Shown: positions 2,722 to 62,919 of the stretch, one piece after another
How the letters are laid out: each line of letters begins with the position of its first letter
Position numbering within the stretch: position 1 is the first letter of the stretch
Source: Coemansia sp. RSA 922
Taxonomy: Eukaryota; Kickxellomycota; Kickxellomycetes; Kickxellales; Kickxellaceae
Direction: 5' to 3'
DNA: 63,820 nucleotides
Assembly (NCBI GenBank): GCA_027577415.1
Contig: JANBQS010000018.1
Coordinates: forward strand, 1 to 63,820
Notes under the pieces: generated by a model
The model's database searches: none
Told to the model about the DNA's origin: nothing
Seen by the model: the letters and a program-made list of their open reading frames with translations, nothing else
Made by a program: the position numbers and the translations under genes

Positions 2722-3108
2722 ATGTCTGATCCTTTAGCTTCAGTAACGCATATAGTAAATGACGAAAGCAGGGACAGATTCGTTGAAGGCAATGCAAAGA
2801 GTTTGATTGTAGGCTACTGTGATATTAAGTACATGTCAGTTCTGTATAAATATCTCAAACCTCTATTGCCAGAGCATAGAATTGCCATTAGAGATATTTT
2901 TACTTTAAACACCCATGGCGATGGTGGTGCACTTGAAAACGCTACTATAGTGTACGCATTCTATAAAGGCAGCATGGAGGCTGAGGCTCCTGATGTGTCT
3001 CGTGGGCATTTAGAGTGGGTCAAGGATTATGCATGGCAAGAGTATTCAGGGGGTCAAAAAGCTGAAGATGAAAGTCTAGCGTGCCTTGCCAAAGGTTTAG
3101 GCATATAG
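2722..3108 (+). CDS. Small orphan protein (128 aa), divergent member of the multicopy small-protein family
   Basis: I do not recognise this protein. The frame is open further upstream, but the ATG at 2722 follows the TATA box and leader and gives MSDPLASVTHIVND, which lines up with the starts of related genes. The next gene (3709..4110) is a paralogue. They share the pattern SLIVGYCDIKY / SVVAGYYTENY, then YLKPLLPE / YLKPQLPE, then IRDI / VRDV, a short HG-containing turn, and a strand before a final helix. This alternation of hydrophobic strands and helices resembles a thioredoxin-like fold, but the CxxC site is absent. There is no signal peptide or membrane segment, so a cytosolic location is likely. 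Kinship to the seven clear members at 21-24, 37 and 51-54 kb is inferred from size, pattern and promoter type rather than from strong identity. Confidence 0.6.
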   Translation: MSDPLASVTHIVNDESRDRFVEGNAKSLIVGYCDIKYMSVLYKYLKPLLPEHRIAIRDIFTLNTHGDGGALENATIVYAFYKGSMEAEAPDVSRGHLEWVKDYAWQEYSGGQKAEDESLACLAKGLGI

Positions 3109-3708: not shown

Positions 3709-4110
3709 ATGAGTACTTGCGACCTTTTTCCACGTCTAGCAAACGACAATGACCTAGACATGTTCCTCAAGGAAGACAAATGTAGCGTAGTAGCTGGCTA
3801 CTATACTGAAAATTACATGGCTTTTCTATACAACTATCTCAAACCTCAGTTGCCAGAGGGGATTGCGTTTGATGTCAGAGATGTTGGTAAATTTAACCCC
3901 CACGGCGAAGCTGGCACGCCTGAAACCAGTAGTCGATTTGCTGTTGTTTTCTCATCATACGAAGGCAAGGAGCAAGTTGATTTTCCTCCTTGGCTCAAGG
4001 ATAAAATAAACACCGCCCAGAGCGAAGCACGAAAAGTATATGAGGAGCTCGAGGTTATAGAGAATAAAAATCTAGAAAGCCTTACCAGCATATTCCGCAC
4101 AATGTGTTGA
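3709..4110 (+). CDS. Small orphan protein (133 aa), paralogue of the 2722 gene
   Basis: I do not recognise the product. It is a tandem paralogue of the preceding gene. It has MSTCDLFPRLANDNDLDMFL, then SVVAGYYTENYMAFLYNYL, PQLPEGIAFDVRDVGKFN, a glycine-rich turn and the strand RFAVVFSSYEGKEQ, ending in a charged helix. The order strand-helix-strand-turn-strand-helix would suit a thioredoxin-like fold lacking redox cysteines (inference). There is no signal peptide, and the ORF is complete and uninterrupted. The pair sits between PPM1 and the fatty acid synthase, which are unrelated conserved genes, so it looks like an accessory insertion. Function is unknown. Confidence 0.6.
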   Translation: MSTCDLFPRLANDNDLDMFLKEDKCSVVAGYYTENYMAFLYNYLKPQLPEGIAFDVRDVGKFNPHGEAGTPETSSRFAVVFSSYEGKEQVDFPPWLKDKINTAQSEARKVYEELEVIENKNLESLTSIFRTMC

Positions 4111-10900: not shown

Positions 10901-13900
10901 ACGTGCCATTCCACTCCAGCCAGCTACTTCCCGGTGTCGATGAGTTCCGTTCACATCTTCAAGAGATGGTCCAGCAAGATAATATCAACTATTCTGCGCT
11001 GCATCTTCGCTACATCCCCAACTTGACCGCAGTGCCGTTTGAAGTGTCGCGAGAGTACTTTGGCCTGGTTCACAGCATTACGGATTCGCCTGTAGCTGCT
11101 ACTGTGTTAGGCACATGGACTGCTGCCGCTATGGACAATGACGACGACATTGCAAGGCTGGCAGTGGCGTTGCTGGTTGAGCTCCTGGCTTACCAGTTCG
11201 CTTCGCCCGTCCAGTGGATTGGCACTCAGGACGTTTTGCTTGGCAAACTTGACGTGCGCCGCTTGGTCGAGATTGGTGCAAGCCCTGTTCTCAGTGGTAT
11301 GGCTGTCAAGACGCTGAAGAGCAAAGAGTTTGCTGGCAATAATGTGGATGTGTTGCACGTCGAGCGCGATAGAGATGCAATCTACTACACTCAGCAGCGC
11401 CAGGAGGTTGTCGAGCCGACTTCCAGCGTATTACCAGCAGAGTCTAAGCAGCCTACTTTGCCTGCGACGACAGTTGAAGTCGAGTCCATTGCAACCGTTG
11501 TACAGCCATCTGGCACCATAGCACCACTTGTCGACGTTCCGCTCCGGGCCTTAGATATCGTACATGCCGTGGTTGCTCACAAGCTAAAACGCTCTCTTGC
11601 TGACGTATCTACGGCAAAGTCGATCAAGAGTCTCGTCGGCGGCAAGTCGACGCTGCAAAATGAAATTGTTGGCGACCTGCACAAGGAGTTTGGCAGCAAG
11701 GTTCCGGACAAGGCCGAGGATCTCTCGTTGCAAGACCTAGCCACTGCCATCGGCACATTTGGTGGTAGTTTGGGCAAGCATACTCAGGCGCAACTGGCCC
11801 GACTGTTTGGCAACAAGATGCCAGGCGGGTTTTTGCTGTCGTCTGCACGGAGCACTTTGCAGTCGGCGTATGGGCTGGGCCCACAGCGTCAAGATGCTAT
11901 GTTGCTCGTAGCACTGACGATGGAGCCCTCCAACCGACTGTCTAGCGATGCTGAGGCCAAGTCATGGCTTGACTCGGTTGCTCAGGCGTACGCTGCCAAA
12001 GCCGGTATCTCCTACGCCTCTGCTAATTCGGGCAGTTTCAGTGGTCAGTCTGGCGTACCCACCATTAGCAGCGCTGAAATGAAGAGGATGCAGCAGAAGC
12101 AGCATGAGCACGTCCGTCAGCAGATTCAGGTCCTGGCACGCTACGCTGGAATGGACTTGCGCGAGGGAGCTCGTTTGGCCGAGGACGAGCAAGCCAAGGC
12201 GACTATGATGCAGACCAAGCTCGACAGTATTTCGTCAGAATTTGGCGATGAACTCATTGACGGTGCGCAGCCGCTATTCGACGCACGCAAGGCTCGCCGC
12301 TTTGATTCAAGTTGGAACTGGGTGCGGCAGGAGGCGTATGAGCTGATCCAACAAGCTATTGCTAGTTGCGTTGCTGGCTCCACCAATGCATCAGCAGCTG
12401 TCGACGACGCTAGCCTTCAGCGGTTGAAGAATCGATCCAGCCCAGGATTGCTTCAGATGCTTGCTGGGTCGCTGTCTATCTTGCAGGCCGCCGACGATGA
12501 TTCACTAGAGCCGGTAATTAGGCTCGTGTCGGAACTGCGCGATGCCTGTACTAATTCTCTAACGCAGCCGCCAGTCTATCGCGAGTTATCCTCGCCTACT
12601 GCCCCGCAAGTCGACATTGGTGCCAATGGTACTGTGACGTACTCCGAAGTACCACGCCCAGACGAGCTCTCTTTTGTGGACTTTGTTCAGCACATGCGCC
12701 AGCCAACAGCCCAAGATATGCCGCCGTTTATCCACCTCAAGAAGCAATCGGCTGGCAGTGCTTGGTCTTACTGCTCAGAGCTGTCGACAATGTACTACGA
12801 GGGCTTGAGCGATATTTGTGGTAGTGGGCTGTCGTTTGCCGGCAAGACTGCGCTTGTCACTGGCTGCGGACGAGGCTCCATTGGCGCCGATATCGTCTGT
12901 GGCTTGCTTAGCGGCGGCGCCAAGGTCATTGCTACGACATCCTCTTATAGCCGCAAGACTACGCTGTTCTTCGAGGACATGTATCGCACTCACGGCGCCC
13001 GTGGCTCGGAGCTAATCGTTGTTCCATTCAACCAGGGCTCGACTGGCGACATCAAGCGGCTGATTGACTACATCTACAACGATTCAGGCGTTGCCAAGGG
13101 CTTGGGCTGGGACCTCGACTATGTCTTCCCATTTGCCGCCGTATCGGACATTGGCAGCTTTGCGACTAATTTGGGCTCACACTCGGAGTTTGCTCAGCGT
13201 GTCCTGCTCACTAACGTAATACGCTTGCTGGGCAGCATCAAGGATACCAAGGAGCGGCTCGGCTACAACACTAGATCGTCGCTGGTAGTTCTCCCGCTAT
13301 CGCCCAATCACGGCAACTTTGGCGGTGACGGGCTCTACGGCGAGTGCAAAATTGGTTTGGAGACCGCGTTCAACCGGTGGAAGTCCGAGTCATGGAGGAA
13401 CTATTTGTCTATCGCCGGAGCAGTTATTGGGTGGACGCGTGGCACTAGTCTAATGTCTAATAACAACGCGGTTGCTCAAGAGATCGAGCGATTTGGCGTG
13501 CGCACGTTCTCGACTCGCGAGATGGCGTTCAACATCTTGGGTCTTGTCCATCCGCGTATCCGCCGCCTTGCTTGCCGTCAGCCGATCTGGGCAGACCTTA
13601 ACGGCGGAATGGGTGGCATAAGTGACTTTGGCGATGTTGTCAGCAAAGCGCGTGTGGATATACAGCGCACGAGTAATACACTTCAAGTTATTGAGCGTGA
13701 AACTGCTCTTGACTACGCCGCTCAGCGCACACAGGCATCCGTGTTGCCAATCTTGACACAAGGTCCTTCTCCGTTGGCCAAGCACAAGCACCGCTTCCCG
13801 ACGCCTCGCCACTACGTCCAGTTGCAGCACTTACGGCACTTGCAGGACATGGTCAACTTGGACAAGGTCGTTGTCGTCACTGGCTATGGCGAAGTTGGTC

Positions 13901-16020
13901 CGCACGGTAATGCTGAGACGCGCTGGGAGATGGAGGCCTATGGCGAGTTCTCGCTCGAAGGATGTATTGAGTTGGCATGGATCATGGGCCTGATTAAGCA
14001 CGTCAATGGCACGCTCAAGTCGACTGGCGCCATGTACGTCGGTTGGGTCGACGCCAAGACCGAAGAGCCCATTCGCGATATCGACGTGAAGCCGCGCTAC
14101 GAGGAGTATATTCTGGCGCACACTGGCATTCGCTTGATTGAGCCCGAGATGGTGCACGGCTACAATCCGAACAGGCGCCAACTATTGCGAGAGATCCAGA
14201 TTGTACACGATATGGAGCCATTCGACGCCACCGCCGATGAGGCAGCGACGTTCAAGGCTCAGAATGGCAGCAAAGTCGACATCTGGAAAACTGCCAGTGG
14301 GGATTTGTGGTCGGTCAAGTTCCTCAAGGGTGCGCTGATATGCCTGCCAATGGCGCTGAGAGGGAACCGACTAGTCGCTGCGCTTTTGCCAACGGGTTGG
14401 AGTCCAGCTATCTACGGTATTCCCGACGACGCCATCAAGCAAGTGGATCGAGTCACTTGCCATGCGCTGGTGGCTACAGTCGAGGCACTCATCAGATCTG
14501 GCATCACCGATCCCTATGAGCTATACCAGTATTTCCATATCTCTGAAGTTGGAAACACGACTGGCTCGGGTTTAGGCGGTAGTCGTGCACTTCAAGATAT
14601 CTTCAAGAACCGCCACTTGGACAAAGAGGTTAAGAATGATGCGCTTCAAGAGACGTTTATCTCGACTATACAAGCGTGGGTCAATATGCTGCTTATGTCG
14701 AGCTCCGGTCCAGTCAAGCCTGCGGTCGGCGCCTGTGCTACCTCAGTTCTCTCTATTGACACTGCAATCGAGACTATCCAGTCGGGAAAGGCCAAGGTAA
14801 TGATTGCTGGTAGTGTCGACGACTTTGCTGAGGAGTCTAGTGTCGAGTTTGCCAACATGGGTGCGACCAGCAATTCGGTCGAGGAGTTTGCTCAGGGCCG
14901 CACTCCATCAGAGATGTGCCGGCCGTGTACGTCGACGCGCAACGGGTTCATGGAGGGCCAGGGTGCAGGTATTATGACGCTCATGTCAGCGTCGGCAGCG
15001 ATCGAGTTTGGAGCGCCGATCTACGGCATTATTGCCATGTCCGGTACGGCCACTGACAAGCAAGGTCAGTCAGTACCAGCGCCGGGTAAGGGAGTGTTGA
15101 CGTCTGCACGCGAATCATGCGACAACAGCCCACCATCGCGCTTGCTGAACTTTGACTATCGCCGCCGTCAGTTGCAGCGCCAATTGTCTGCGCTAGAGGC
15201 GTGGAAGCAGGAGGAACTAGCTGACTTGGCAGACATGGTAGAAAGACCAACTGATTCGGTCGAGCTTTCAACAATGCGCTACGCGGGAGAGGTAGAAAAG
15301 AGCTACCAGCGCCAGCGCCGTAGTCTACAAGACACCTGGGGCAACGAGTTTTGGAAGAGTGACCCCGAGTTTTCTCCACTACGCGGCAGCTTGGCGGTCT
15401 GGGGCTTGACAGCTGACGATATTGGACTGGCTTCGTTCCACGGCACATCGACGGTAGCCAATGACAAGAACGAGTCGGATGTACTTAACATTCAGCTCAA
15501 GCACTTGGGTCGTACTCCAGGTCACGTCGTGCCAGTTGTGTGCCAGAAGTGGCTGACTGGCCACCCGAAGGGCCCGGCGGCATCGTTTATGCTTAACGGC
15601 GTAATGCAAAGTCTGCGTACGGGATTGATACCAGGCAATCGAAACGCGGACAACATCGGCGAAGAGTTAGAGTCTTTTGACTATACGCTCTACTTGTCAA
15701 AGTCGATTCAGACATCGGGCATCAAGGCGGGTCTGATCAAGTCGTTTGGATTTGGACAAGTCGGCGGCGAGTTACTGGTTGTGCATCCCGACTACCTGTT
15801 AGCCACGCTTACTCAAGAGCAGCTCGGCAAGTACAACGCCAAGCTCCAGCAGCGCAGCGCCAAATCCGAACGCTACTGGCAAGACACTTTGGTTGGCAAC
15901 CATCCATTTGTGCAAGTCAAGAGCCATCCTCCATTTACTGTTGAACAAGAGAAGAGCGTGTATCTCGACCCACTAGCCCGCGCCAAGTACGACTCGGCCT
16001 CAGGCGAGTACAAATTCTAA
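4942..16020 (+). CDS. Type I fatty acid synthase, fused beta-alpha single polypeptide (join 4942..5686, 5783..16020)
   Basis: After removing one intron the frame encodes about 3660 aa with the full fungal FAS order. Acetyltransferase: GHSQG, Ser254. Enoyl reductase: GCGGIFTESD and GRSGGHHSFEDFHQPI. Hot-dog dehydratase: ITHGLWTSAS. Malonyl/palmitoyl transferase: GHSLGEYAALAS, Ser1802. The alpha-type start, VELLAYQFASPVQWI, begins near residue 2046. It is followed by an acidic/Pro-Thr linker, acyl carrier protein (LVGGKST, Ser2204), ketoreductase (KTALVTGCGRGSIGADI) and ketosynthase (GACATS, Cys3233; His3468 in FHGTS; His3509 in LTGHPKG). In most fungi the two halves are separate genes, FAS1 and FAS2. 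Here the chain runs through the beta/alpha junction (~nt 11125-11170) without a break. The protein stops ~427 residues after the active Cys, just after VYLDPLARAKYD, whereas yeast Fas2 carries ~150 more residues forming the phosphopantetheinyl transferase. That domain is therefore absent and the carrier must be activated in trans. The start is the first ATG, giving an acetyltransferase N-terminus of normal length. It would make long-chain acyl-CoA in the cytosol. Confidence 0.95.
5687..5782 (+). other. Intron of the fatty acid synthase gene (phase 1, 96 bp)
   Basis: The donor GTATGT follows AAAG, and the acceptor is TTTTTTTAATCTGTAG. A possible branch site ACTAACAC lies about 30 bp before the acceptor. 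Joining gives the codon order K-V-A-V-G-H-S-Q-G and restores the conserved acetyltransferase nucleophile motif. Without splicing the first exon runs to a stop at 5775. Confidence 0.9.
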
Positions 16021-20893: not shown

Positions 20894-21041
20894 CTATATG
20901 TCGAGGCATTTTTGCAAATTTATTCATTTAGGATTTATTTCTATAAGCTCTGAAAATGTATGAAATACTAGTTCATAAAACATCTTAATGAGGTTGCACT
21001 GGATATTGCGCACTGCAGTGCAAGGACTACTAAGTCGTATT

Positions 21042-21452
21042 TCAACGTATATCTTTAATTCCAAAAAAGAATACACCATTACGTATTTTCTCAGTCTCAA
21101 CTATTACTTTCTGTATAGTTGTAAATTGCGAAGCAAAAGCATTACAGTAATTCTCTACTTCACCATCAGTAGGACTACTTGTTTCTCCTGGGGCACGATA
21201 GGTAAAAAACATGCAACTTGCATTGTACTCGCCCAGACTATCCTGGATAAAATCTGGATTACCAGTGACTCTGATTACTACTATTTTATCCTCTCTTGTA
21301 TTAAATCTCTCGGCAAAGTAGCAGAGTTCTTTAACTTTTTTTTCATCACTTCCAAAAATCGCGACACCAAACTTTGCGTTATTACTTATCAAAAGTGCAT
21401 CTAAAGCAGCCCGATCTGTAACATCGTTAATATGGTGTATGGTTTCAGGCAT
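21042..21452 (-). CDS. Small orphan family protein P1 (136 aa)
   Basis: No known family is recognised. The protein starts MPETIHHINDVTDRAALDAL. The core strand KFGVAIFGSDEKK leads into helix VKELCYFAERF, strand KIVVIRVTG, helix FIQDSLGEYNA and strand SCMFFTYRAPGE, then a C-terminal helix. This beta-alpha-beta-alpha-beta order is like thioredoxin, but the CxxC position reads SDEKK. There is no signal peptide or membrane segment. The paralogue at 52288..52698 is near-identical from the middle of the protein to its end but differs heavily in the first ~50 residues. A TATA box (21574-21581, minus strand) lies 121 bp before the ATG inside the promoter block shared by the whole family. It is the first of three same-strand members here (P1, P2, P3). 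Confidence 0.75.
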   Translation of the reverse strand: MPETIHHINDVTDRAALDALLISNNAKFGVAIFGSDEKKVKELCYFAERFNTREDKIVVIRVTGNPDFIQDSLGEYNASCMFFTYRAPGETSSPTDGEVENYCNAFASQFTTIQKVIVETEKIRNGVFFFGIKDIR

Positions 21453-21544
21453 TGTACTGTTGAAATGGCTAGTGAGTAGTATCCAAAAAAGTGCTATAAA
21501 CTAATAGAGAATGGTGAGTGAGTATGGTGAGTATGGTGAGTAAA

Positions 21545-21610
21545 AATGTGCAGAGGTGGGCAGAAAAGTGTCGCTTTTATACGTCTCCCTGGTTTGCCCC
21601 AGCAAAGCAG
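21545..21610 (-). promoter_or_regulatory. Core promoter block of P1, typical of the small-gene family
   Basis: Read on the minus strand, the block is CCAGGGAGACGTATAAAAGC followed by a C-rich leader that ends CACATTTTT. Versions of this block precede the genes starting at 22951, 24239, 37111, 51407, 52698 and 54187, always with 113-121 bp between TATA and ATG. The leader also conserves a GGATACTACTCAC word roughly 10-30 bp before the start codon in several copies. Confidence 0.7.
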
Positions 21611-22555
21611 TGTTTGAAGACTTTGAAAATAATGCGCTTTCCTTGCTTGCCTTTAAACAATTAGCAGCCTAAGCATTGCGTCAGAGCTAAAAATAGATGC
21701 TAGAAAAGGTGGGAAGCGTGTGAAGTCAGCTATTGCTTGTGAAAAAGGGTCCACCAATCAGAATCCATTTGGACGCATGAGGGGCGGCCAACAAAGCCCA
21801 TCCATGAGAGTTTACCATTTTTGGGGAGCCACTGCAAAGAACGCTTTGAAGGCGTGTAGAAAGAGAAGAGCAAAAACGTGTCCAAACAATGACCACATTG
21901 GTGCTTTGTAAGTTTGAGACTTCTTTGAGCAACGCTGGGCCCCTTTGAAAAAAAGCCAAGGCCGCTGCCCACGTTTTCAACAGGGAATCCTACACTTTTG
22001 GCCAAGAAAGAGTGAATGCTAACACCCTGTCTCCATCCACATTGGTATTTGAGTAAACGCCATTATTATTATTATTTTGCAAACTTGGCTGCTACGCAAA
22101 GATTGATGACTAGATCGATGGTGGTTAGCTTCGGGCGAGAGCTGGTCACAAACTGCCAGAAAAGTACATGTAACGCACAGTTCTATATCTAGTCCTGGTC
22201 TACAGTATGCCAGGTGCAGAATTTACAGAGGTCAAATCCACAGCAACATTATCACCCATGTTGATTACCTGAAAACACGACTTGAACTACTGTGTATGGC
22301 CTTCTTTGCACTCTGGTTTACTAGGGAATCATTTGTTTTCATCCTGTGTAGATAGCTGGAAAATGCAATAATAGTATAACTGCACAATAGCAAGATATAA
22401 TCTGGTGTGTACAGTTTATTTCTAAAAGCACAGCAACGTATGGATTCAAGTTCGTAAACTGACCAGTAAAATATTATCTTGACCGCAAGCACTGCTGCGT
22501 AGGAGCTAGAGCATTGGAGTCAACTCGTGTTGCCAATCTGTTGTCCCATCTGACA

Positions 22556-22951
22556 TTAAGCAGTTTTGCTAAATCTTACATACTCTACTTGTCCCCGCAG
22601 AAGACTCTTTTCAACATTATTTTCTGATATTTTCTCATAGAATGCTACCATTTTGTCACTGTATTGCGCATAGCTGGAGTGGTCATTATCTACAGTGCAA
22701 AACCTGATCATCTCTTCTTTCTCATTTAGCTGGTCTTCGACAAATGACTTGGTTTTGTCTGTACGGTGCACCCACACAATAGTGACATACGGTTTGTCAA
22801 TTTTCAAAGCCCACTTGAGCATATCGCCTGCTCGAGATTCATTTTCTCCATATATAGCCACTACAAAATGGTAGTGTGTCCAGACTGATAAAATACTTTG
22901 CAAAAGTGTTCTGCTTGTAAATTCTACATTCTCCTCCGTGAATTTGGGCAT
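22556..22951 (-). CDS. Small orphan family protein P2 (131 aa)
   Basis: The function is unrecognised. The open frame extends upstream to 23116, but the ATG at 22951 (MPKFTEENVEF) sits at the position conserved across the family, 118 bp after the TATA box at 23070-23077. The core is HFVVAIYGENES, helix AGDMLKWALK, strand YVTIVWVHRTD, helix KSFVEDQL, and the C-terminal strand QVEYVRFSKTA. A close paralogue (about a dozen differences over 131 residues) lies at 53792..54187. It shares the hydrophobic strand + G, helix, strand, helix layout with P1 and P3 but little direct identity. There is no CxxC motif, signal peptide or membrane segment. Confidence 0.72.
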   Translation of the reverse strand: MPKFTEENVEFTSRTLLQSILSVWTHYHFVVAIYGENESRAGDMLKWALKIDKPYVTIVWVHRTDKTKSFVEDQLNEKEEMIRFCTVDNDHSSYAQYSDKMVAFYEKISENNVEKSLLRGQVEYVRFSKTA

Positions 22952-23345
22952 CTTGCTATTTAGAAAGGCTATAAAATAATATCCAAAAAAGTGATAAATA
23001 GTATTGGAATAAGGTGTGTAACAATAAAGAAAAGAAAAGGGGCGTGCTTGGGTGGGTAGGAATGGACTCCTTTTATATATATTTATCTCTTCGGCTACTC
23101 CAACAAAGCTTACCAAGAGAGATTCCTGTCCACCAAAGACGCTGTATTTCTCTAGAATTCTTCACAGAATAATATTCAGAAAAACTTTTCAGAAAATTGT
23201 GTATGCTTGATTGCCTTTGAGCTAAGAGCGGCAAAAGAGCTTCATGTTAGCAAGCCGGAAATAGATACAGGCAGAGCAGAAAAAAGTGCGTTGATTCGAA
23301 TCCAATAGGTGCACCTAACCCACTCTAATGGACACCAGAATATCT

Positions 23346-23840
23346 TACTAACCTATTCACAAAACAACAATACAACTGGGCCACTCAAAAGAGTAATTTT
23401 TATCGACAGTCTGGCTGTCTGACTTGCTGATAGTGTAAGGTCCGTTACCATCAGCCTCAGTACTAGCCAAAGCTCCACACTTGGCAGCGTCTGTTTCTTA
23501 TCCTTCTTGATAAACTGTTCAAGATATTGTACGATGCCTCTTGGGTATTTTTATCCTGTCAAGTAGTGTGAGACAGGGGCATATTTACACTTCTATTTGC
23601 AGTTTTTTGTTTGCATATTTTCGGATACGCCGTCTCAGTGATTCTTCAACCTAAGCCAGCGACACGGCTAACGTTGTAACATCTTCCTCTGTCAACCATC
23701 GATCTTGTTGGCTTTTTTCTGTTATGAAATATATTTCTAAAATTTCTAAAAATTTTGAAATACCAGTTTGTAAAATGACTAGAGGGTACACATGACAATG
23801 TGCACTGCGGCACAAGGGCTATTCAGTTGTATAGTTGCTA
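23346..23840. other. Spacer between P2 and P3, with coding-like debris on the minus strand
   Basis: No intact gene is present. On the minus strand between roughly 23700 and 23360 short stretches look coding (for example WLTEEDVTTLAVSLA and then VEESLRRRIRKYANKK) but are broken by stops and frame changes, so this is probably a decayed gene of unknown family. The last ~80 bp resemble the 3' flank of P1 (TGCACTGC followed by AAGGGCTA), marking the start of the P3 unit. Confidence 0.35.
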
Positions 23841-24239
23841 TTATTTATTGATAGCAAGCGAAGTTCCATAGTTAGCCAATGTAGCTGACCAACCATTCTT
23901 CTGGTAAGTTTCAGATGCTTCCAAGATCGATAAACACGCCTTGGGTAACCCTTCCCACTTGTCAAAAATAGCTTGTGTGGTGTTAAGGGGAAAAAAGATA
24001 CACATTGCGCTATATCCAGCCAGCATTTCCTTAGCAAATGGTGTTTCACTGGCGTCTCTTAAAACAATAAATTCATCCTTTTTATCCTCCTTATATTGAC
24101 AAACTGCATAGAAGAGCTCAGTTGCCTCCGCTCCATCTCCAAAAACTGCCGCACCCAATATACAGTTATTATCCTGCATAATTCTATGATAATCCGCGTC
24201 ATCATTAAAAACTTGAGTCCTTCCCTTAATTATCGTCAT
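23841..24239 (-). CDS. Small orphan family protein P3 (132 aa)
   Basis: The function is unrecognised. The start MTIIKGRTQVFNDDADYHRI is at the family position, 114 bp after the TATA box (24354-24361). Core elements are NCILGAAVFGDGAE, helix ATELFYAVCQY, strand DEFIVLRDAS, helix FAKEMLAGYSA and strand MCIFFPLN, which align in layout with P1 (VAIFG ... VIRV ... LGEYNA ... CMFFTY). Its upstream 0.9 kb is clearly homologous to the region upstream of the gene ending at 50994, yet the two proteins share little identity. There is no CxxC, signal peptide or membrane segment. It is divergent to CHL1. Confidence 0.72.
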   Translation of the reverse strand: MTIIKGRTQVFNDDADYHRIMQDNNCILGAAVFGDGAEATELFYAVCQYKEDKKDEFIVLRDASETPFAKEMLAGYSAMCIFFPLNTTQAIFDKWEGLPKACLSILEASETYQKNGWSATLANYGTSLAINK

Positions 24240-25136
24240 GTTGCAGTTAAATCACAAGGAAGTAGTATCTAAGAAAATGTGCTTCAAAACTAATTGAGAA
24301 TGGTGTGAGAATATGAAGAAGAAAAATGTGTTGAGGAGGACAGGAAGGGTCGCCTTTTATAGGTCTCCCCGGTTTGCTCCATCGAAGCTTTCAGAAGGAA
24401 ATTCCTGTCCACCTTGGATGCCAAATTCTTCTTCTCTCCCCAACAAAAATTGGCAAACACGCAGTTTTGAAACTTTTAAAAATTGCACTTCTAATGACGT
24501 ATCCTTGAACCTTTGAACAAAGAAAAGCAATACCACTGAGGCTTTGAAGCTTTGAAAAATCGCACATCCAATGACGTACAATTCAGCCTTTGAACAAAAG
24601 GCAGCGAAAGCTTGCTGCTTGAAGACTGTAAAATAAATTGCACATCTTTTGTTGTGCTTTTGAGGCTACGTCATTTTTATAGTGGAAATCGCTCAAGAAG
24701 GACTCTTTGAAAACATGTACAAGAGAATGGCAAAACCGTTTCCAATAGAATGGCCACGATGATGCTTTGCAAGTTTGCGACTTTTTTTGAGAAAAGCTGA
24801 GCCCCTTTGAAAACAGCCATGGCTGCCGCCCACATTTTCAACAGAGGATTGATGGTGGTCAATATCAAGGAAAAAGTGTATCATGAATGCCCAGGCAGTT
24901 ACATACACCCTGCAGTTCTAAGTCTAATCATTGCATACACGGTGCATATGTAGTTCCATGTAGTTCCATGGAGGTCCACATGTCTCCCCAAAACCGGTAG
25001 AGTCCACTGTGGTAAATTGGAAGCTCAGAGCCGCTTTATTTTGCCCTTCACATGAAAAGGTTTACCAATTGCAGAGTATAGCCCATTGGCCGACATTTGA
25101 TTAGTATGTGATCCTCATGGATATAGTCTTGTTTTA
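24240..25136. repeat. P3 upstream cassette, homologous to 51408..52180
   Basis: This is the leader, TATA block and ~750 bp of distal upstream sequence of P3. The same sequence with scattered changes lies upstream of the gene starting at 51407. The left copy has an extra ~120 bp because a unit containing a TTTGAA word, TGACGTA and CCTTTGAAC is present twice in tandem (TGACGTA at 24495-24501 and 24572-24578) and once on the right (51623-51629). A TACGTCA word is at 24667-24673. Homology ends near the GGATATAGTCT word at about 25120. Confidence 0.75.
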
Positions 25137-32098: not shown

Positions 32099-35000
32099 AT
32101 GCTACGACCACTACATTATGCTCTACTTGCCGTGATTTGCACTGTAAGCTATTTTCTGGCGCGCACTGGCCAAGAAAATGGCCCAACGTCTCTGCCTCCT
32201 CCAATGGAAGCCTTCAACAACTACCAGCCCGCCGACTGGGAAACCAACTTTGAATCCAAGCTAACTGTCGAGTCGTCATTGCCGTACAAAGCGTACACTG
32301 GTCACATCGAAAAGTCGGGCAATGACAAAAACCAGTACAGGCTTATTCGTCTACCAAACAACCTCACTGCGCTGTGTGTCCAAGACGTAGATGCCAAGGA
32401 AGCAGCCGCTTCACTTAGCGTTAATATTGGCTCAAGCGCTAACCCAGTTGAGCTCCAAGGTCTGGCACATTTCCTGGAGCATATGCTGTTTCTGGTAAGT
32501 AATGTCTATTAATTGCAAAGTATAAAAAATAGGTATGGGAAGTACTAACCAAACATTATCATTAATGGTCAAATACTATGTAGGGTACTGAAAAGTATCC
32601 CATGGAGGGAGATTACAAAGTATATCTTGCACGAAACTCTGGAAAGTGCAATGCTTATACTTCCTTTACTGAAACCAACTACTACTTCTCCTTATTCAAT
32701 GATGCTTTGGAAGGTGCTCTTGACCGGCTTGCGCAGTTCTTCATCTCACCACTATTTAATGCTGATTGTGTAGACCGCGAGCTAAAGGCAGTGGACTCTG
32801 AGTACAAGGGAAATTTGCAATCTGACTCTCGCCGCATCTATCAGCTTGTTGCTAGAACTTCTAATCCCGCCCACCCATTCTCTTGGTTCCCTACAGGGAA
32901 CACAGGGACACTAAAGGGCGCTGCCGAGGAACTGGGCTTGGACTTGCGCGACGAGCTGATAAAGTTCTACCACAAGTACTACTCGGCAGATATTATGCGT
33001 TTAGTGGTGGTTGGCAACCACAGCTTGGATATGCTATCTGAGTGGGTTACGTCAAAATTCTCTGACGTTAAAAGCAAGGGAAATACTAAACCAAAGTTTA
33101 CTTTCCACCCCATTGGTAAGGCTGAGCTAAGGAAAGTTATTCACTACAAAACCGTTCATGAAAAATATGAACTCAAGCTGCAGTTTTCTCTTCCTGAACT
33201 AAAGTCGACATATGGAGAAAAGCCATTTGCTTATATCAACACCCTACTAAATCACAAGGAGCCAGGATCAATTTACTCAGTGTTGCGCAAGAATAGTTGG
33301 GCCACTGCTATTTCCGCTCACTCTAGTGGCATGTATTATGATGGCTTTGGCACCTATGATATTAGTGTTGCCGCCACACCCGAAGGACTGGAGAACTACG
33401 AAGCCATTGTGAGCATCATATTTGGGTACATTAACATGCTAGTTGAGAGCGGTCCTCAAGAGTGGTATTACCAAGAGCTGGCGCTTGTTAGCAAAGCCGA
33501 GTTTGATTTCAAGGAAAAAGAAGATGCAGAGACCTACGCTCGTACTCTTTCAAGCAGAGGGCACAATCAGTATGTCCCACCACACCAAATACTGTCGCAC
33601 AACTATTTATCTAGCGGATATGATGCCGACCTCATTTCCAAGTGCCTAAGCTACCTCAACCCTGGTAACTACCGCCTGTTTATTGGTGCGCAGGAGCACA
33701 AGGCAGTGGAGTGCAAGCTTGAGGAAAAGTACTACAACATTCTCCACCATGTTGCCGACATGCCGTCACATATGACTTCTGATGTAAAGTGTAGCCCAAG
33801 CGTTGCAAATATGCTACACTTGCCTGGCCGCAATGCATATCTGCCAGAAAGTTTGTCGGTTACCAAGCCAGTCACTCCTGTAGATAAACCAGCGATGGAG
33901 CCTGTGCTTCTCAAGAAGAACGACAGGTTTGAAGTTTGGTTCAAGCAAGACGACCAGTTCTTTACACCTCATGGGCATATTGGCCTAACCATCAGCTCCG
34001 AATATATGAATAATTCTCCTCTCAACCACTTGCTGTCGACTCTACTTTGCAAGCTAGTATCAGCCGAACTACAAGAGCAGCTGTTTGGCGCTTTGAGGGC
34101 CAACAGTAACTTTTATTTGACTCTAAGGGAAGGCTCAATCAATGTTGATGTATCTGGGTTTAGTAGTGGGCTGCCTCTTTTGCTAAAGACAATACTGCAA
34201 AAGATAAAGACCTTTAAAGTTGATACCCAACAGTTCTCCATTTACCGGGATGAGATTGAACGGATGGTTCAGAGCCAAAGACTGGACAATCCTATATCAC
34301 TAATTTACCGGCAACTAGACGCTGTCAATATGGTTCCTGCATTTGACCAAGACATGCTGGAAGAAGCACTAAAGGATATAACTCTAGATGGGCTTCAGAA
34401 ACATATTGAGCTGCTTTTTAGCAAAGCCTATGTGAAGATGCTCGTGTCAGGAAACTATAACCAGTCAGTGGCACTCGATACTAGCAATCAGGTACTTGAC
34501 ATCTTGCAGCCTCAGCCTGTTTCAAGATCCTCAACTAATGCTCGTCGCATACTTGATATTGAACCAGGATATTATACCCAGATTGTGTCAATTAGCGACC
34601 AGAAGTGCTTGAGCAGTGCTGTGATATGCACGTTCTACTGCGGATCTGTATATGATACTCAAGATAAAGTTACGCTTCAAGTATTAAAATACTTGGTTCA
34701 CAGAGCATACTTTGCGCAGTTGAGGACTTCCGAGCAGCTAGCTTACAAAGTTGGAGCAATATTGGATTCCTACAAGGAAGGGAGAGATATGCTTTTGTTT
34801 GCATTGGAGGGTGAGAGCAATCCGATATATGTAACTCAGCGTATTAACGAATTCCTTCGCCAATATCGGCAGAAATTGCAGGAGTTGACAGCAGGTGAGT
34901 TTGAATCGTCAATTCAGTCACTGATCAGCCTGAAACAAGAAAAACCAAAGTCGATTGACGACGAGTTTAGCCGGCTGTGGACCCACATTAAGTCGGACAA

Positions 35001-35661
35001 GTACAAGTTTGACGCGTTGGATAAGGATGTCGAGCATCTCAAGCTGCTGAGCAAGGACGACTTACTTGCATTCTGGGACAAGTATGTAAACGAAGACACT
35101 GCACAAGGCTACACACGACTTGACATGCAAATGTCATCTGCCAAGATCTGGCAGCCAACAGCTGAAGAGTTTGAAATGTACCCGAGTACAATTCTTGCCC
35201 TGTACGGATCCTTGCGCTCTGAAGGTCACACGGGCCTAAGCATTGCGGATGTCCAATCCTTTGTATCATCGGCGGATGCATCAAGCAGTATTGAGTCGCT
35301 ACTTGCCGAACTAAGCGAGCTTTATCTAAGCAAGCAGACACCATCAGTGTCCAATGAGACAGCTGAAGCATTAGATACCACTGTTGTCAGTGTAGAAGCC
35401 CCTGGAATTGTACTTAAGAGTTCGTCAAAGATTGCAACTGCCTTGAAAATGGCGATTAGCAGCGCTAACGAGGCACCCAAATTTGCCACGCTCAGCAAGA
35501 CAAACTTTGCCAACATTAAAATGAAGCAATCGCCAGAGGGAATTTGGCTTATTAACGACTATAAGCGATTCCAGCATACACAGGCACTCCATGGTATATC
35601 AGTTCCCTTGCGCAAGCTGGTTCCACTCATCGCAGAGTCAGCTCTGGCGGATAACAATTAG
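32099..35661 (+). CDS. Insulysin-type M16 zinc metalloprotease (join 32099..32494, 32584..35661)
   Basis: After splicing a GTAAGT...TAG intron (32495-32583, phase 0) the product is about 1157 aa. It carries the inverted zinc motif HFLEH (His124, Glu127, His128) and the distal Glu205 in AVDSEYKGN, followed by insulysin hallmarks: GALDRLAQFFISPLFN, NPAHPFSWFPTGNTGTL and, in the C-terminal half, LRTSEQLAYKVGAI. This is the insulin-degrading enzyme/Ste23/Axl1 family, which forms a closed chamber and cleaves short peptides. In yeast it processes the a-factor pheromone. The N-terminus PLHYALLAVICTVSYFLA looks like a signal anchor, unlike the mainly cytosolic family members, hinting at secretory-pathway or surface display. 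The intron splits HFLEHMLFL from GTEKYP exactly, and joining restores the family sequence. Confidence 0.92.
32495..32583 (+). other. Intron of the insulysin gene (89 bp, phase 0)
   Basis: The donor GTAAGT and acceptor ATGTAG flank an AT-rich 89 bp insert containing CTAACC (about 33-38 bp before the acceptor) as a possible branch site. Removal joins MLFL to GTEKYP, the conserved insulysin sequence. Confidence 0.88.
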
Positions 35662-36679: not shown

Positions 36680-37111
36680 TTAATAATAAAAAGTATTGCG
36701 GTCACCATTGGCATCAACATTAGCAGTACCGGCTGTATTTGTAGTAGGGTTAAGTGGAAAGTTACGTCTTTGAACGTTACGATCTAAGCTACAGTCAAAA
36801 TTTAGAATGAGAGCTTGATCATCAAGTGATAGATTGTAAAAACTATCAGCAAAAGCCATCCATCCTGCGCTGTATATACCCAGCCACTCTTTAGAATAAC
36901 TGGTAGTGTTTTTGACTCGAATTACTAACACACTATTTATAAACTTTCCATTTTTGCTTAATCCCTCAGCAATTTCATACATTGCCTGAGCTATTTGCTG
37001 ATCAGCTTTGCCAAAGATTGCAATGGCAAACTTTCTATTGGCAGCTTTAAGTGCTGCAATTAAATCATCCCTACTGTTAGCCTCTATGGTATTAAACTCG
37101 ATTGATGACAT
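36680..37111 (-). CDS. Small orphan family protein P4 (143 aa)
   Basis: The function is unrecognised. MSSIEFNTIEANSRDDLI begins at the family start position, 119 bp after the TATA box (37231-37238). The core matches the family pattern: KFAIAIFGKADQQ, helix AQAMYEIAEG, strand SVLVIRVKN, helix SKEWLGIYSAG and strand WMAFAD. The C-terminal ~50 residues are Asn/Asp-rich and unlike the other members, so this copy differs mainly after the core. Its leader (GGTGAGTAGTATCTA on the plus strand) and TATA block are clearly those of P1 and P3. There is no CxxC, signal peptide or membrane segment. It lies 183 bp from a TDP1 relic. Confidence 0.72.
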   Translation of the reverse strand: MSSIEFNTIEANSRDDLIAALKAANRKFAIAIFGKADQQIAQAMYEIAEGLSKNGKFINSVLVIRVKNTTSYSKEWLGIYSAGWMAFADSFYNLSLDDQALILNFDCSLDRNVQRRNFPLNPTTNTAGTANVDANGDRNTFYY

Positions 37112-37640
37112 TGTACTGTTAAAGCGTCTGGTGAGTAGTATCTAGGTACGCTCCTACGAATAAAACTAATGGAGAAATGTGAGTAGAGAATATGAGGAAA
37201 TTTGTGTGGAGGTGGCCAAGAAAGTGTTTCCTTTTATATGTCTCCCTGGTTTGCTGCAAGGAATATTTGTGAGAGAAATTTCAGTCCTCCCAGAATGCCA
37301 AATCCCCCTCCCAAAAATAGCAATTTCAGAAACACTACTCGGACACCGGAAATGAGTATTTGTCTTGATTGATTGCCTTTGAACAAAGAGCAACAAACAC
37401 ACGCTGTTTGGTGACTGTAAAATAAATTGTATTTCCAAAAACATACTATGGAGGCTTCGTCATTATTGGAAACATTCAAAAGTACTCTTTGAAACACCAG
37501 AAAGGGAAAGAGCAAAAAAGCGTCCAAACAAAGGCCATGGGGATGCTTTGAAGGTTTCCATTTCATTGAGCAATGCTGGGCCACTTTATTTTTGGCCAAG
37601 AAAGAGTGAATGCTAATGTCTTGTCTCCATCCTCAGCCAC
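37112..37640 (-). promoter_or_regulatory. P4 leader, TATA promoter block and upstream cassette remnant
   Basis: The TATA block (TATAAAAG, 37231-37238) is embedded in CCAGGGAGACATATAAAAGG, nearly the same as P1 and P3. Upstream, words such as GCCTTTGAACAAAGAGCAGC, GGTGACTGTAAAATAAATTG and CTTTGAA match the distal cassette upstream of P3 (24590-24720). The cassette fades by about 37640. Confidence 0.6.
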
Positions 37641-50993: not shown

Positions 50994-51407
50994 TCACTCC
51001 AGACCAATATAGAGGTCATCGAAATTATGCCTAAACTTATATTTGCATTCATAGCCCTGGCCGTTTAAGCTGGCAATAAGAGTATCGCGGATTTCCAACA
51101 GCCTCACTTTATCATCCTCTAATGGTTCCATAAACCTGCTTAGAGAGATGGCACACCTCGCACGATATGTACTTAGATAATCTTTAGCAGTGCCTGATTT
51201 GCTAGGGACTTTAATAATTAACACACTCATATCTTTGCCATATATATTATTCGCAGTAGCAAGCATAGCCTTGAAAGGACACCTACCATTTACTATATCA
51301 TCGTCATTTCCAAATACCACGATGGCACACTCAGCATTCCTTTTTTGAGCTTCTCTCCTGTAATCATTATAGTCATCAGTTTCACGTTCAAACGTAATTT
51401 CGGGCAT
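50994..51407 (-). CDS. Small orphan family protein (137 aa), P3-promoter copy
   Basis: The function is unrecognised. The frame is open to 51440, but the ATG at 51407 (MPEITFERETDDYNDYRR) aligns with the family start site and is 113 bp from the TATA-like box (CATAAAAAG, 51521-51529). The core has the family layout: CAIVVFGNDDD, helix PFKAMLATANN, strand MSVLIIKVPS, helix AKDYLSTYRA and strand RCAISLSRF. The sequence is far from P3 (23841..24239) although the ~0.8 kb upstream regions of the two are homologous. There is no CxxC, signal peptide or membrane segment. It converges on TDP1. Confidence 0.72.
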   Translation of the reverse strand: MPEITFERETDDYNDYRREAQKRNAECAIVVFGNDDDIVNGRCPFKAMLATANNIYGKDMSVLIIKVPSKSGTAKDYLSTYRARCAISLSRFMEPLEDDKVRLLEIRDTLIASLNGQGYECKYKFRHNFDDLYIGLE

Positions 51408-52180
51408 TTTCACGTTATAAAGGTGGTGAATGGTATCCAAGAAAGGTTTTAAATAAACTAATAAAAAATGTGGGCAGAGAATAAGACAAAAAATGTGCGG
51501 AGGAGGGCAGGAAAGGGATGCTTTTTATGCGTCTCTCTGGCTCCTCCAACGAAGCTTTCAGAAGGAAATTCCTGTCCACCATGGATGCCAATTCTTCATC
51601 CCAAAAACAGTTGAACCTCCAATGACGTACATTTCAGCCTTTGAACAAAAGGCAGCAAAAGCTTGCTGCTTGAAGACTGTAAAATAAATTGCACATCTTT
51701 TGTCGTGCTTTTGAGACTACGTCATTTTTATATTGGCAATCGCTCAAAAAGGCCTCTTTGAAACCATGTAAAAGAAAATGGCAAAACCGTTTCCAATAGA
51801 AAGGCCACGGTGGTGCTTTACAAGTTTGAGACTTCTTTGCGCAAAGCTGGACCCCTTTGAAAAAAAGCCTTGGCCCCTGCCCACATTTTCAACAGAAGAT
51901 TGATGGTTGTCAATATCAAGGAAAAAGTGTATCACGGATACCCAAGCAGTTACATACACTGTGCAGTTCTAAGTCTAATCATCGCCTACAAGGTGCATAT
52001 GTAGTTTCATGGAGGTCCTCGAGCTTCCCCAAAGCAGGTAGAGTCCACTGTGGTAAATTGGAAGCTCAGAGACGCTTTATTTTGCCCTTCACATGAAATG
52101 GTTTACCAATTGCAGAGTACAGCCCATTGGTCAACATTTGATTAATGTGTGATTCTCGTGGATATAGTCTGGTTTTATAA
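51408..52180. repeat. Upstream cassette, homologous to 24240..25136
   Basis: This has the same order of elements as upstream of P3: leader, TATA block, TTCAGAAGGAAATTCCTGTC, TGACGTA (51623-51629), TACGTCA (51718-51724) and long matching stretches to GGATATAGTCT near 52165. It lacks the ~120 bp tandem unit found in the left copy. Confidence 0.75.
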
Positions 52181-52287
52181 CTTATTACTAAATGTACTAC
52201 AAAGTAAGGTGTACTAGTTCATAAAACATCTTAATGAGGTTGCACTGGATATTGCGCACTGCAGTGCAAGGACTACTAAGTCGTATT

Positions 52288-52698
52288 TCAACGTATATCT
52301 TTAATTCCAAAAAAGAATACACCATTACGTACGTTACCAGTCTCAGCTATTACTTTCTGTGCAGTTGTAAATTGCGAAGCAAAAGCATTACAGTAATTCT
52401 CTACTTCACCATCAGTAGGACTACTTGTTTCTCCTGGGGCACGATAGGTAAAAAACATGCAATTTGCGCTGTACTGGCCCAGACTATCCTGGATAAACTC
52501 TGAACTACCAGTGACTCTGATTACTACTATTTTATCCTCTCTTGTATTAAATCTCTCGGCATAGTAGCAGAGGTCGTCAACTTTCCTTTTATCGTTTCCG
52601 AAAATTGCAACACCAAACTTTGCGCTATTACTTTTCAAAAGTGCATCTAAACCAGCCCGGTCTGTAACATTTTCAATATTGCATGTGATTGAGCTCAT
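52288..52698 (-). CDS. Small orphan family protein P1' (136 aa), paralogue of P1
   Basis: The function is unrecognised. From residue ~50 to the end it is nearly the same as P1 (NTREDKIVVIRVTG, CMFFTYRAPGETSS, NGVFFFGIKDIR). The first ~10 residues (MSSITCNIEN versus MPETIHHIND) and several positions around KFGVAIFGNDKRKVDDLCYY are changed. The start is at the family position, 115 bp after its TATA box (52814-52822). The conserved C-terminus and flanks against a variable N-terminal half suggest either selection on that half or gene conversion with another copy. There is no CxxC or signal peptide. Confidence 0.75.
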   Translation of the reverse strand: MSSITCNIENVTDRAGLDALLKSNSAKFGVAIFGNDKRKVDDLCYYAERFNTREDKIVVIRVTGSSEFIQDSLGQYSANCMFFTYRAPGETSSPTDGEVENYCNAFASQFTTAQKVIAETGNVRNGVFFFGIKDIR

Positions 52699-53791
52699 AT
52701 TACTGTTAATTCGGGTAATGCGTAGTATTCAAACAAAATGTGCTATAAACTATTAGAGAATGGTGTGTGAGTGGGGCAAATAAAAATGTGCAGAGGTGGG
52801 CAGAAAAGGGTCGCTTTTTATACGTCTCCCTGGCTTCCCCCAACAAAGCAGTGTTTGGAAGCTTTGAAAATAATGCGCTTTCCTTGCTTGCCTTTAAACT
52901 ATGAGCAGCCAAAGCACTGCGTCAGAGCTAAAAATAGATGCCAGAAAAGGTGGGAAACGTGTGAAGTCATCTATTGCTTGTGAAAAAGGGTCCACCAATC
53001 AGAATCCATTTGGACGCATGAGGGGCGGCCAACAAAGCCCATCCATGAGAGTTTACCATTTTTGGGGAGCCACTGCAAAGAACGCTTTGAAGGCGTGTAG
53101 AAAGAGAAGAGCAAAAACTTGTCCAAACAATGACCACATTGGTGCTTTGTAAGTTTGAGACTTCTTTGAGCAACGCTGGGCTCCTTTGAAAAAAGCCAAG
53201 GCCGCTGCCCACGTTTTCAACAGAGAATCCTCCACTTTTGGCCAAGAAAAAGTAAATGCTAATGCCTTGTCTCCATCCACATTGGTATTTGAGTAAATGC
53301 TATTTTTATTTTTTGCAAACTTGGCAACTACACAAAGATTGACTACTAGATTGATGGTGGTTAGCTTCAAGGGAGAGCTGGTCACAAACTGCCAGAAAAG
53401 TACATGTAACGCACAGTTCTATATCTAGTCCTGGTCTACAGTATGCCAGGTGCAGAATTTACAGAGGTCAAATCCACAGCAACATTATCACCCATGTTGA
53501 TTACCTGAAAACACGACTTGAACTACTGTGTATGGCCTTCTTTGCACTCTGGTTTACTAGGGAATCATTTGTTTTCATCCTGTGTAGATAGCTGGAAAAT
53601 GCAATAATAGTATAACTGCACAATAGCAAGATATAATCTGGTGTGTACAGTTTATTTCTAAAAGCACAGCAACGTATGGATTCAAGTTCGTAAACTGACC
53701 AGTAAAATATTATCTTGACAGCAAGCACTACTGCATTGGGGCTACAGCATTGGAGCCGACTCGTGTGGCCAGTCTGTCGTCCCATCTGACA

Positions 53792-54187
53792 TTATGCAGT
53801 TTTGCTAAATGATACATACTCTACTTGTCCCCGCAGAAGACTCTTTTCAACATTATTTTCTGACATTTTCTCATAGAATGCTACCATTTTGTCGTTGTAT
53901 TGCGCATAGCTGGAGTGGTCATCATCTACAGTGCAAAACCTGATCATCTCATCTTTCCCATTTAGCTGGTCTTCGACAAATGACTTGGTTTTGTCCGTAC
54001 GGTGCACCCACACAATAGTGACATACGGTTTGTCAATTTTCAAAGCCCACTTGAGCATATCGCCTGCTCGAGATTTCTTTTCTCCATATATAGCCACTAC
54101 AAAATGGTAGTGTGTCCAGACTGATAAAATACTTTGCAAAAGTGTCCTGCTTGTAAATTCTACATTCACCTCCGTGAATTCGGGCAT
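53792..54187 (-). CDS. Small orphan family protein P2' (131 aa), paralogue of P2
   Basis: The function is unrecognised. It differs from P2 (22556..22951) at about a dozen residues, for example MPEFTEVNVEF versus MPKFTEENVEF, and several of the changes alter charge. The core HFVVAIYGEKKS, helix AGDMLKWALK and strand YVTIVWVHRTD are retained, as is the C-terminal VEYVSFSKTA. The ATG is 117 bp after a TATA-like box (CATAAAAGG, 54305-54313). The ORF is intact. Confidence 0.72.
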   Translation of the reverse strand: MPEFTEVNVEFTSRTLLQSILSVWTHYHFVVAIYGEKKSRAGDMLKWALKIDKPYVTIVWVHRTDKTKSFVEDQLNGKDEMIRFCTVDDDHSSYAQYNDKMVAFYEKMSENNVEKSLLRGQVEYVSFSKTA

Positions 54188-54765
54188 CTTGCTATTTAAA
54201 AAGAGTATAAAGTAATATTCAAAAAGTTGATAAATATTATTGGAATAAGGTGTGTAAGAATAAAGAAAAGAAAAGGGGCGTGCTTGGGTGGGTAGGAATG
54301 GACGCCTTTTATGTCTCTTTGGCTAATCCAACAAAGCTTGCCGTGGGAGAGATTCCTGTCCACCAAAGACGCTATATTTCTCTAGAATTTCTCACAGAAT
54401 AATATTCAGAAACACCATTCAGAAAATTGTGTATGCTTGATTTCTTTTGAGCCAAGAGCAGCAAAAACGCTTCATGTTAGCAAGCCGGAAATAGATACTG
54501 GCAGAGCAGGAAAAAATGTGTTGATGTGAATCCAATAGATGCGCTCAACCTGCTTTAATGGATGTAAGAAGGCCACTTACTAGTTGGTCCATGAGAGCAT
54601 ATTATTTTTTTGGGCTCACTCAAAAGACTATCTCAAAACCCGACTGACTAAATGATTTTGCTGACAGAAAAAGTTCAGTCAACGTTGGCATTATCTCCAA
54701 CAGATATTGGAATGGTTTAATATATAACATAGAGCAAGAAAAAAAGAATATAAACACAAAGGTAT

Positions 54766-62434: not shown

Positions 62435-62490
62435 ACACATAGTAGTTTATTCTAGTAGTACGCTAATACCATGTAGTCATCCTGGCTACG
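62266..62490. repeat. Inverted repeat of the first 225 bases of the window
   Basis: Bases 62266-62490 are the reverse complement of 1-225 without indels and with a modest number of substitutions. They span the MAT2B 3' end, the 17 bp convergent spacer and the DM9 tail, which is unchanged over its last 12 codons. The repeat presumably extends past the left window edge into the other DM9 copy. Confidence 0.85.
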
Positions 62491-62919
62491 CTCATTATCG
62501 CCATAAGTAAAGTTTATGCCATGGCTCAGGTGGTGGCCGGCTTTGCCCAGCTGCTGCGAGTTGCTAAAGTTGGCTTTTGCTATATACAGTGGCTGTCCGT
62601 CAGCCTCGTGCCCTCCTTCCACTAGGGCCGGTCCATGGTCATGCTTGGGTACAGGCCCCTTTTCCGCTATCCACTGTGCGCGATTAATATCCCCGCATAG
62701 TACAAAATACTCGTTGAGCTCTACTGTATGTCCAGCATACCCTGTGGCAAATCCGCCGTTGGCCAGGTGTGGCGCTGCCTTGCCTGGATGTAGTCCGCCC
62801 TTGAAAAACGCCCGCGCTATGTATAACGGTCTGCCGTCGCGCTCTACACCCTGCGCGATAGCATTGCTGGGAATCATCCCATTGCTGGACTTGACCCACT
62901 CAAATGCCTTGGTCACCAT
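62452..62919 (-). CDS. DM9-repeat (DUF3421) protein, 155 aa
   Basis: Two DM9-type repeats are visible. The first is WVKSSNGMIPSNAIAQG followed by GRPLYIARAFFKGGLHPGK and ELNEYFVLCG. The second is QWIAEKGPVPKHDHGPALVEG followed by DGQPLYIAKANFSNSQQLGK and DDYMVLAYY. The family is widespread in fungi and insects. Some animal members bind mannose-type glycans. The fungal function is unknown. There is no signal peptide, so it is probably cytosolic. Length fits a two-repeat unit. The tail of a second copy opens the window at 1..39. It is divergent to the MFS transporter. Confidence 0.85.
   Translation of the reverse strand: MVTKAFEWVKSSNGMIPSNAIAQGVERDGRPLYIARAFFKGGLHPGKAAPHLANGGFATGYAGHTVELNEYFVLCGDINRAQWIAEKGPVPKHDHGPALVEGGHEADGQPLYIAKANFSNSQQLGKAGHHLSHGINFTYGDNERSQDDYMVLAYY

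Follow-up and report, generated by a model that had tools for sequence, protein, structure and literature searches.

A dispersed family of small, variable proteins behind a related promoter and leader in the fungus Coemansia sp. RSA 922

Fungi offer two described systems with which variable multicopy genes can be compared. In the msg genes of Pneumocystis, as far as the available part of PMC5676039 describes them, a constant upstream region precedes the variable open reading frames (ORFs) of a dispersed multicopy family, and exchange takes place near the ORF start; the proteins made carry a leader peptide and lie at the surface, family I being expressed from one site via the UCS/CRJE and families II–VI having a promoter each. 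The wtf family of Schizosaccharomyces is, according to the excerpts of the literature consulted, multicopy and fast-evolving, with gene conversion among copies and a shared regulatory motif, and its drivers comprise several exons and start at two sites, one for the antidote and one for the poison. We have analyzed a stretch of 63,820 nucleotides from Coemansia sp. RSA 922 (the window), which is the whole contig C18 (JANBQS010000018.1) of a 20.4-Mb eukaryotic assembly of 960 contigs, and have found that seven small ORFs in it are members of a dispersed fungal multigene family of small proteins. Taking both systems by their descriptions, msg would be the closest parallel in how the family works, not in membership: in Coemansia there is one promoter per copy, and a signal peptide is not apparent. 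Unlike the wtf drivers, the Coemansia ORFs are single open frames.

The family and its cassette

The seven ORFs are single-exon, lie on the minus strand and were found where the sequence-only reading of this contig had placed them. We name them by their first coordinate and give the region of promoter and leader, on the same strand, after each: ORF 21042 (21042..21452, 136 amino acids (aa), main family; 21453..21597), ORF 22556 (22556..22951, 131 aa; 22952..23097), ORF 23841 (23841..24239, 132 aa; 24240..24380), ORF 36680 (36680..37111, 143 aa; 37112..37257), ORF 50994 (50994..51407, 137 aa; 51408..51548), ORF 52288 (52288..52698, 136 aa; 52699..52860) and ORF 53792 (53792..54187, 131 aa; 54188..54330). 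Both 22556 and 53792 belong to the 22556 subfamily; profile-profile comparison joins it to the main family with a probability of 89 (E 2e-6). Between the proteins of the seven, identity is 92% at most and about 17–24% at least, which bears out their description as near-identical to barely alignable.

A TATA-like box precedes every one of these ORFs, each copy having its own promoter. The box is exactly TATAAAAG in four of the seven (21042 among them), TATAAAAA in 52288 and CATAAAA in 50994 and 53792. Counted from the start of the box, the distances to the ATG are 129, 126, 122, 127, 122, 124 and 126 bp in the order given above, and after subtraction of the 8-bp box they agree to within 1 bp with the intervals first proposed. 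We aligned 35 upstream regions, from both families discussed here, two incomplete copies and a candidate on C638. The main family shows a block like CCAGGGAGAC (as upstream of 21042), the TATA-like box and a related leader that reaches the ATG, so that the leaders are indeed related over their full length. A 162-bp query taken from the promoter and leader of 52288 gave 18 matches at 17 loci, the locus on C53, where an insert of about 240 bp splits the leader, being counted once. Since the E values run from 2e-79 to 3e-9, chance likeness is excluded, and the near-constant spacing between box and ATG reflects common descent and not independent coincidence. At 16 of the 17 loci the leader runs into a family ORF (the interrupted C177a, the frame-shifted C741a and C53 and the contig-truncated C10b included) and at the remaining one, C469, it runs off its contig; as far as these loci show, it is not a promoter block spread before many unrelated genes.

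A 14-bp core was rejected as a specific marker of the family, because its sites with up to two mismatches are rarer than those of the reversed control (261+255 against 391+372). Family ORFs follow four of the five exact sites and 11 of the 38 one-mismatch sites, as judged from downstream ORFs inspected at 30 of the 43 core sites and with three of the 11 (on C342, C465 and C741) matched to ORFs by place; the fifth exact site (L013, on C638) precedes a 138-aa ORF without a profile match. Downstream of the stop, two close pairs have the common 3' flanks that had been claimed, at 82% identity over 129 bp in one and 92% over 130 bp in the other, and among other copies the likeness is weaker, e.g., 66% between 23841 and 52288. 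Of 33 sequences, second-family members and two broken copies included, 19 have an AATAAA no more than 200 bp from the stop.

The genome was queried with six main-family ORFs of the window, ORF 3709 and an ORF on contig C165 (C165a), and a profile of the main family was then run over 567 ORF segments from the window and most of the retrieved stretches of the assembly. It matched 33 segments, equal to 32 loci as C177a is in two pieces; this count is a lower bound, and it includes the 18 sequences that also built the profile and match it by construction. Besides the seven in the window there are two loci each on C165, C177, C198, C342, C465, C514 and C741 and one each on C5, C10, C26, C53, C61, C66, C101, C170, C257, C293 and C595. 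Only the first 30 codons are visible of a further copy at the end of C10. In the protein database the 18-sequence profile found two matches, both in Coemansia sp. RSA 2531, and the search with the family profile showed the protein GGF41_000042 of that strain to be identical over 130 aa to C165a; ORF 52288 alone as query found zero relatives there at E <= 1. Restriction to one lineage is not proven by these searches, their scope, the number of other Coemansia proteomes in the database, being unmeasured. No Pfam family reached its cut-off with the family members, in agreement with the remark that no known family is recognisable, and the titles and abstract openings retrieved on Coemansia genomes, family expansion and orphan genes hold nothing about the family.

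Two plus-strand ORFs of the window, 2722 (2722..3108, 128 aa) and 3709 (3709..4110, 133 aa), had been taken for divergent relatives of the seven. Their intervals from box start to ATG, 108 and 99 bp, are as claimed. The kinship itself is without support: profile-profile comparison of the two groups gave E 0.26, neither profile finds the other at E <= 1, and the upstream DNA of 2722 and 3709 lacks the CCAGGGAGAC block. They appear to form a separate family of seven loci, two each on C18, C485 and C298 and one on C43, for which the protein database search returned zero relatives. The predicted fold of 2722 (predicted local distance difference test, pLDDT, 52.9) was not used. Two members of this second family, L059 and L061 on C298 and C43, have in common a C-terminal extension of about 60 residues that is absent in 2722 and 3709.

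Pairing of leaders and reading frames

The comparison of C165a with 21042 gives an abrupt contrast between upstream DNA and product. Identity in successive bins of the upstream DNA is 83, 86, 74 and 83%, rising to 98% in the 60 bp next to the ORF; it then collapses at codon 4, to 42–53% over the ORF, and only 22 of 124 aligned residues of the proteins are alike. The best break is at +10 in the ORF (interval +4 to +13), with twice the log-likelihood ratio at 65.9 against a maximum of 15.4 in 300 shuffles. Extreme evolution of the protein was rejected as the cause, since the synonymous sites of the ORF are saturated too (proportion of differing synonymous sites, pS, 0.66) while the flank differs by just 14–26%.

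Similar breaks were located in other pairs, at −23 (−49 to +3) between C165a and 52288 and at −47 (−75 to −21) between 23841 and 50994. The last two copies are on one contig, where the segment upstream of 23841 (24564..25136) is 88% identical to 51615-52177 upstream of 50994, the ORFs themselves being barely alike. Not every junction coincides with the start codon, because 36680 has high identity to C514 or C170 only further upstream, dropping before the ATG. Over 24 members the leader tree and the protein tree mutually reject each other (approximately unbiased test, p 1e-11 and 4e-5). As coding and flanking DNA elsewhere diverge at similar rates in pairwise comparison, the simplest account is that recombination has linked the upstream region of one copy with the ORF of another; promoter and leader have been re-paired with ORFs in this way, in C165a/21042 with the junction at the ORF start. 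The idea of a conserved expression cassette carrying a variable product was right, and it is sharpened by the conflict of the trees and the abrupt break in that pair.

Duplicated blocks, rates of change and the predicted protein

Several contigs carrying these genes are collinear. Positions 1256-5613 of C18 align with C485 at 94% and 91%, C342 with C741 at 90% over 5 kb, C165 with C177 at 88–89%, C198 with C465 at 87% and C298 with C43 at 88%, and inside the window the segment with ORFs 21042 and 22556 (20966..23332) is collinear with 52212-54562 at 92%. Pieces of neighbouring genes that we take to be a fatty-acid-synthase-like gene, a helicase and an insulysin-like gene have long matches on at least five, seven and eleven other contigs, respectively (5 of 36 candidates were scored for the first and 39 of 62 for the last, and the window's own place is not among the matches listed). 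Because of the collinear contigs and these multi-contig matches the family is placed in repeatedly duplicated blocks, and its copies have spread with them.

Across 28 pairs the ratio of nonsynonymous to synonymous change (dN/dS, omega) goes from 0.27 to 3.9. The conserved genes of the same blocks provide the reference. In the C18/C485 block a leucine carboxyl methyltransferase (Pfam name) has 15 synonymous and 0 nonsynonymous differences over 318 codons and ORF 4942 an omega of 0.13, whereas 2722 differs from C485b by 37 nonsynonymous and 3 synonymous changes, a contrast with the methyltransferase at Fisher p 7e-11; in 3709, its sibling, each kind of change occurs 8 times (omega 0.27). The helicase gives 0.11 and 0.16 between C18 and C10, and ORF 38176 gives 0.18. 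Several genes nearby thus evolve far more slowly than the family proteins, in which a core of sites and the frame are kept. In both codon models, which cover ten groups and 26 sequences (three of the groups from the second family), 21–25% of sites fall in a class with omega near 0, and over ten pairs, picked as intact, 12.7 stops would be expected under no constraint and 0 were observed (chance of all being open, 2e-6). Codon-level constraint is therefore apparent in these site classes and open frames.

Positive selection is possible and weakly supported. The plain model favours a site class with omega 7.7 (M1a/M2a, p 3e-9), which persists after dropping any single group (p 4e-7 or lower), and modelling of multi-base changes leaves 6% of sites with an omega of 5.8 (p 0.019). 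According to the parts of PMC9500374 and PMC6332903 that were available, it is debated whether multi-base changes mimic selection. As a firm claim positive selection was rejected, for the codons behind the M1a/M2a result are those in which more than one base has changed. The excess of nonsynonymous change in 2722/C485b (one-sided p 0.011) is the best of nine pairs and not significant after correction.

The fold of 52288, predicted at moderate confidence, would have the order of strands and helices of thioredoxins, and the best structural matches of the model are thioredoxins and the b domains of protein disulfide isomerases (PDI; ERp57, ERp27). In a viral structure library zero matches reached E <= 0.001, about 24 of the 50 matches listed being named thioredoxin or alike. 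Searches by sequence gave no thioredoxin family among the Pfam matches of 18 members at E <= 1, and no significant match of the profile to PDB sequences (two ZIP2 rows, E 0.35 and 0.64). A CxxC is present in one of 33 sequences (C61), as a CARC stretch before the fourth strand and away from the active-site place. The main-family protein probably has a thioredoxin-like fold without the redox CxxC pair; it would differ from known proteins of this fold in being free-standing and hypervariable, with no sequence similarity found to them. By hydropathy, none of the 33 sequences has a strongly hydrophobic N-terminal stretch (within residues 1–40 the 15-residue maximum is 1.57), in accordance with the reported lack of a secretion signal, nor one anywhere (19-residue maximum 1.86).

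Possible roles of the family

Starting from the family, its cassette, the duplicated blocks, the re-pairing, the high dN/dS relative to the named neighbours and the kept frames, we infer for the products an intracellular role in conflict or recognition. Each copy would be its own transcription unit, consisting of a promoter, an ORF behind a leader of about 120 bp, and often a downstream AATAAA. The copies have spread along with duplicated blocks, and the proteins change fast while frame and core sites stay. Through recombination in homologous upstream DNA, promoter and leader have been re-paired with ORFs, and for one pair the junction lies at the ORF start. The products would act inside the cell against a parasite, a selfish element or non-self, in a system where many co-regulated variants are favoured. 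To such a repertoire of small, thioredoxin-like, intracellular proteins we give roughly even chances. The sequence-only reading had offered an arms-race, self-recognition or variable-surface system; the first two remain the best-fitting class and the surface part is not supported, given 33 sequences with no strongly hydrophobic start and a TATA box for every copy. A more specific version, rather doubtful, sees in the family a cytosolic repertoire for recognition or incompatibility whose thioredoxin-like scaffold is redox-dead and whose diversity comes from re-pairing at the start codon and fast change at a minority of sites; this would make it an intracellular counterpart of surface-antigen cassettes in an early-diverging fungus.

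Several results weigh against the main explanation. Leader and protein identity are, despite the conflicting trees, correlated (0.66 over 276 pairs), the positive-selection signal is gone after masking of the codons that differ at more than one base (twice the log-likelihood difference, 2dL, 0), and a partner or target of the products was not found in this analysis. Other such results agree with the main rival, relaxed surplus paralogues, where block duplication makes extra copies that change near-neutrally and decay, the variation having no purpose. Nine pairs pooled give pN 0.097 and pS 0.086 (p 0.38), and the M0 omega of 0.91 is not different from 1 (p 0.37, or 0.08 with multi-base changes). 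Five loci are broken (C465a, C177a, C741a, C53 and C298b), so that the open-frame test, made on intact pairs, overstates the constraint, and the neighbouring TDP1-like gene evolves loosely as well (omega 0.29–0.63, mostly in pieces with stops). Against mere surplus stand the frames kept in those intact pairs, the roughly one fifth of sites with omega near 0, the retention of promoter, leader and often AATAAA, and a rate of change far above that of two genes duplicated in the same blocks, the methyltransferase and the helicase. We regard relaxed copies as possible, though not probable.

A selfish family of spore killers or drivers, whose copies persist by harming offspring without them as wtf does in fission yeast, would also be multicopy, fast-changing and recombining, and the accounts of wtf, as far as seen, include a shared regulatory motif. 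Here neither a second start nor an arrangement of poison and antidote was seen, and the ORFs are single-exon without a strongly hydrophobic stretch; this explanation is unlikely. Less likely still is that the family and its contrasts come largely from two diverged haplotypes or mixed strains in the assembly. Contig pairs collinear at 87–94% would look like this, and the second-family pair of C18 and C485 is within one of them. As a whole explanation it was rejected, because seven copies are on contig C18 and tandem copies on C342, C741 and C165, one gene piece recurs on at least 11 further contigs of the 20.4-Mb assembly, and the 23841/50994 contrast is inside a single contig. A variable surface or secreted antigen-like family, after the Pneumocystis msg genes, shares the variable ORFs behind a common upstream region and the junction near the start codon (UCS/CRJE, in the part of PMC5676039 available) but is highly improbable for proteins with no signal-like hydrophobic start and one promoter per copy.

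As for the surroundings, the fatty-acid-synthase-like ORF (3349 aa, matched on at least five other contigs) is at 5971-16020, and the insulysin-like gene at 32099-35661, its long matches on at least 11 other contigs being 81–88% identical. Two tyrosyl-DNA phosphodiesterase genes (Pfam) are at 49607-50878 and 55718-57238; copies of the first, many of them with stops, adjoin family ORFs on several contigs. The protein encoded at 62452-62919 has DM9 repeats (Pfam), and a 126-aa ORF at 43042-43422 resembles, judged by eye, a piece of reverse transcriptase. Among the disrupted copies, L031 (C177, ORF start about 13308) has an interruption of about 160 bp with TG...CA ends and AGGTG on both sides, resembling a solo long terminal repeat. 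L069 (C53, about 6250-6500) has the insert of about 240 bp in its leader and an ORF out of frame with the usual start, and in L068 (C741, about 3342) the usual start is out of frame near a T run, by a real change or a sequencing error.

Coemansia is free-living, and to our knowledge little is known of the non-self and anti-parasite systems of Kickxellomycota; in a literature search on the subphylum name or allorecognition, none of the eight matches listed out of 2,023 holds that name. A steady control region with a fast-changing protein, the pattern of this family, is often seen in biological conflict. The family is large, its copies would each be a transcription unit, conserved neighbours serve as controls and the junctions left by recombination can be read, which makes it testable what drives the diversification.

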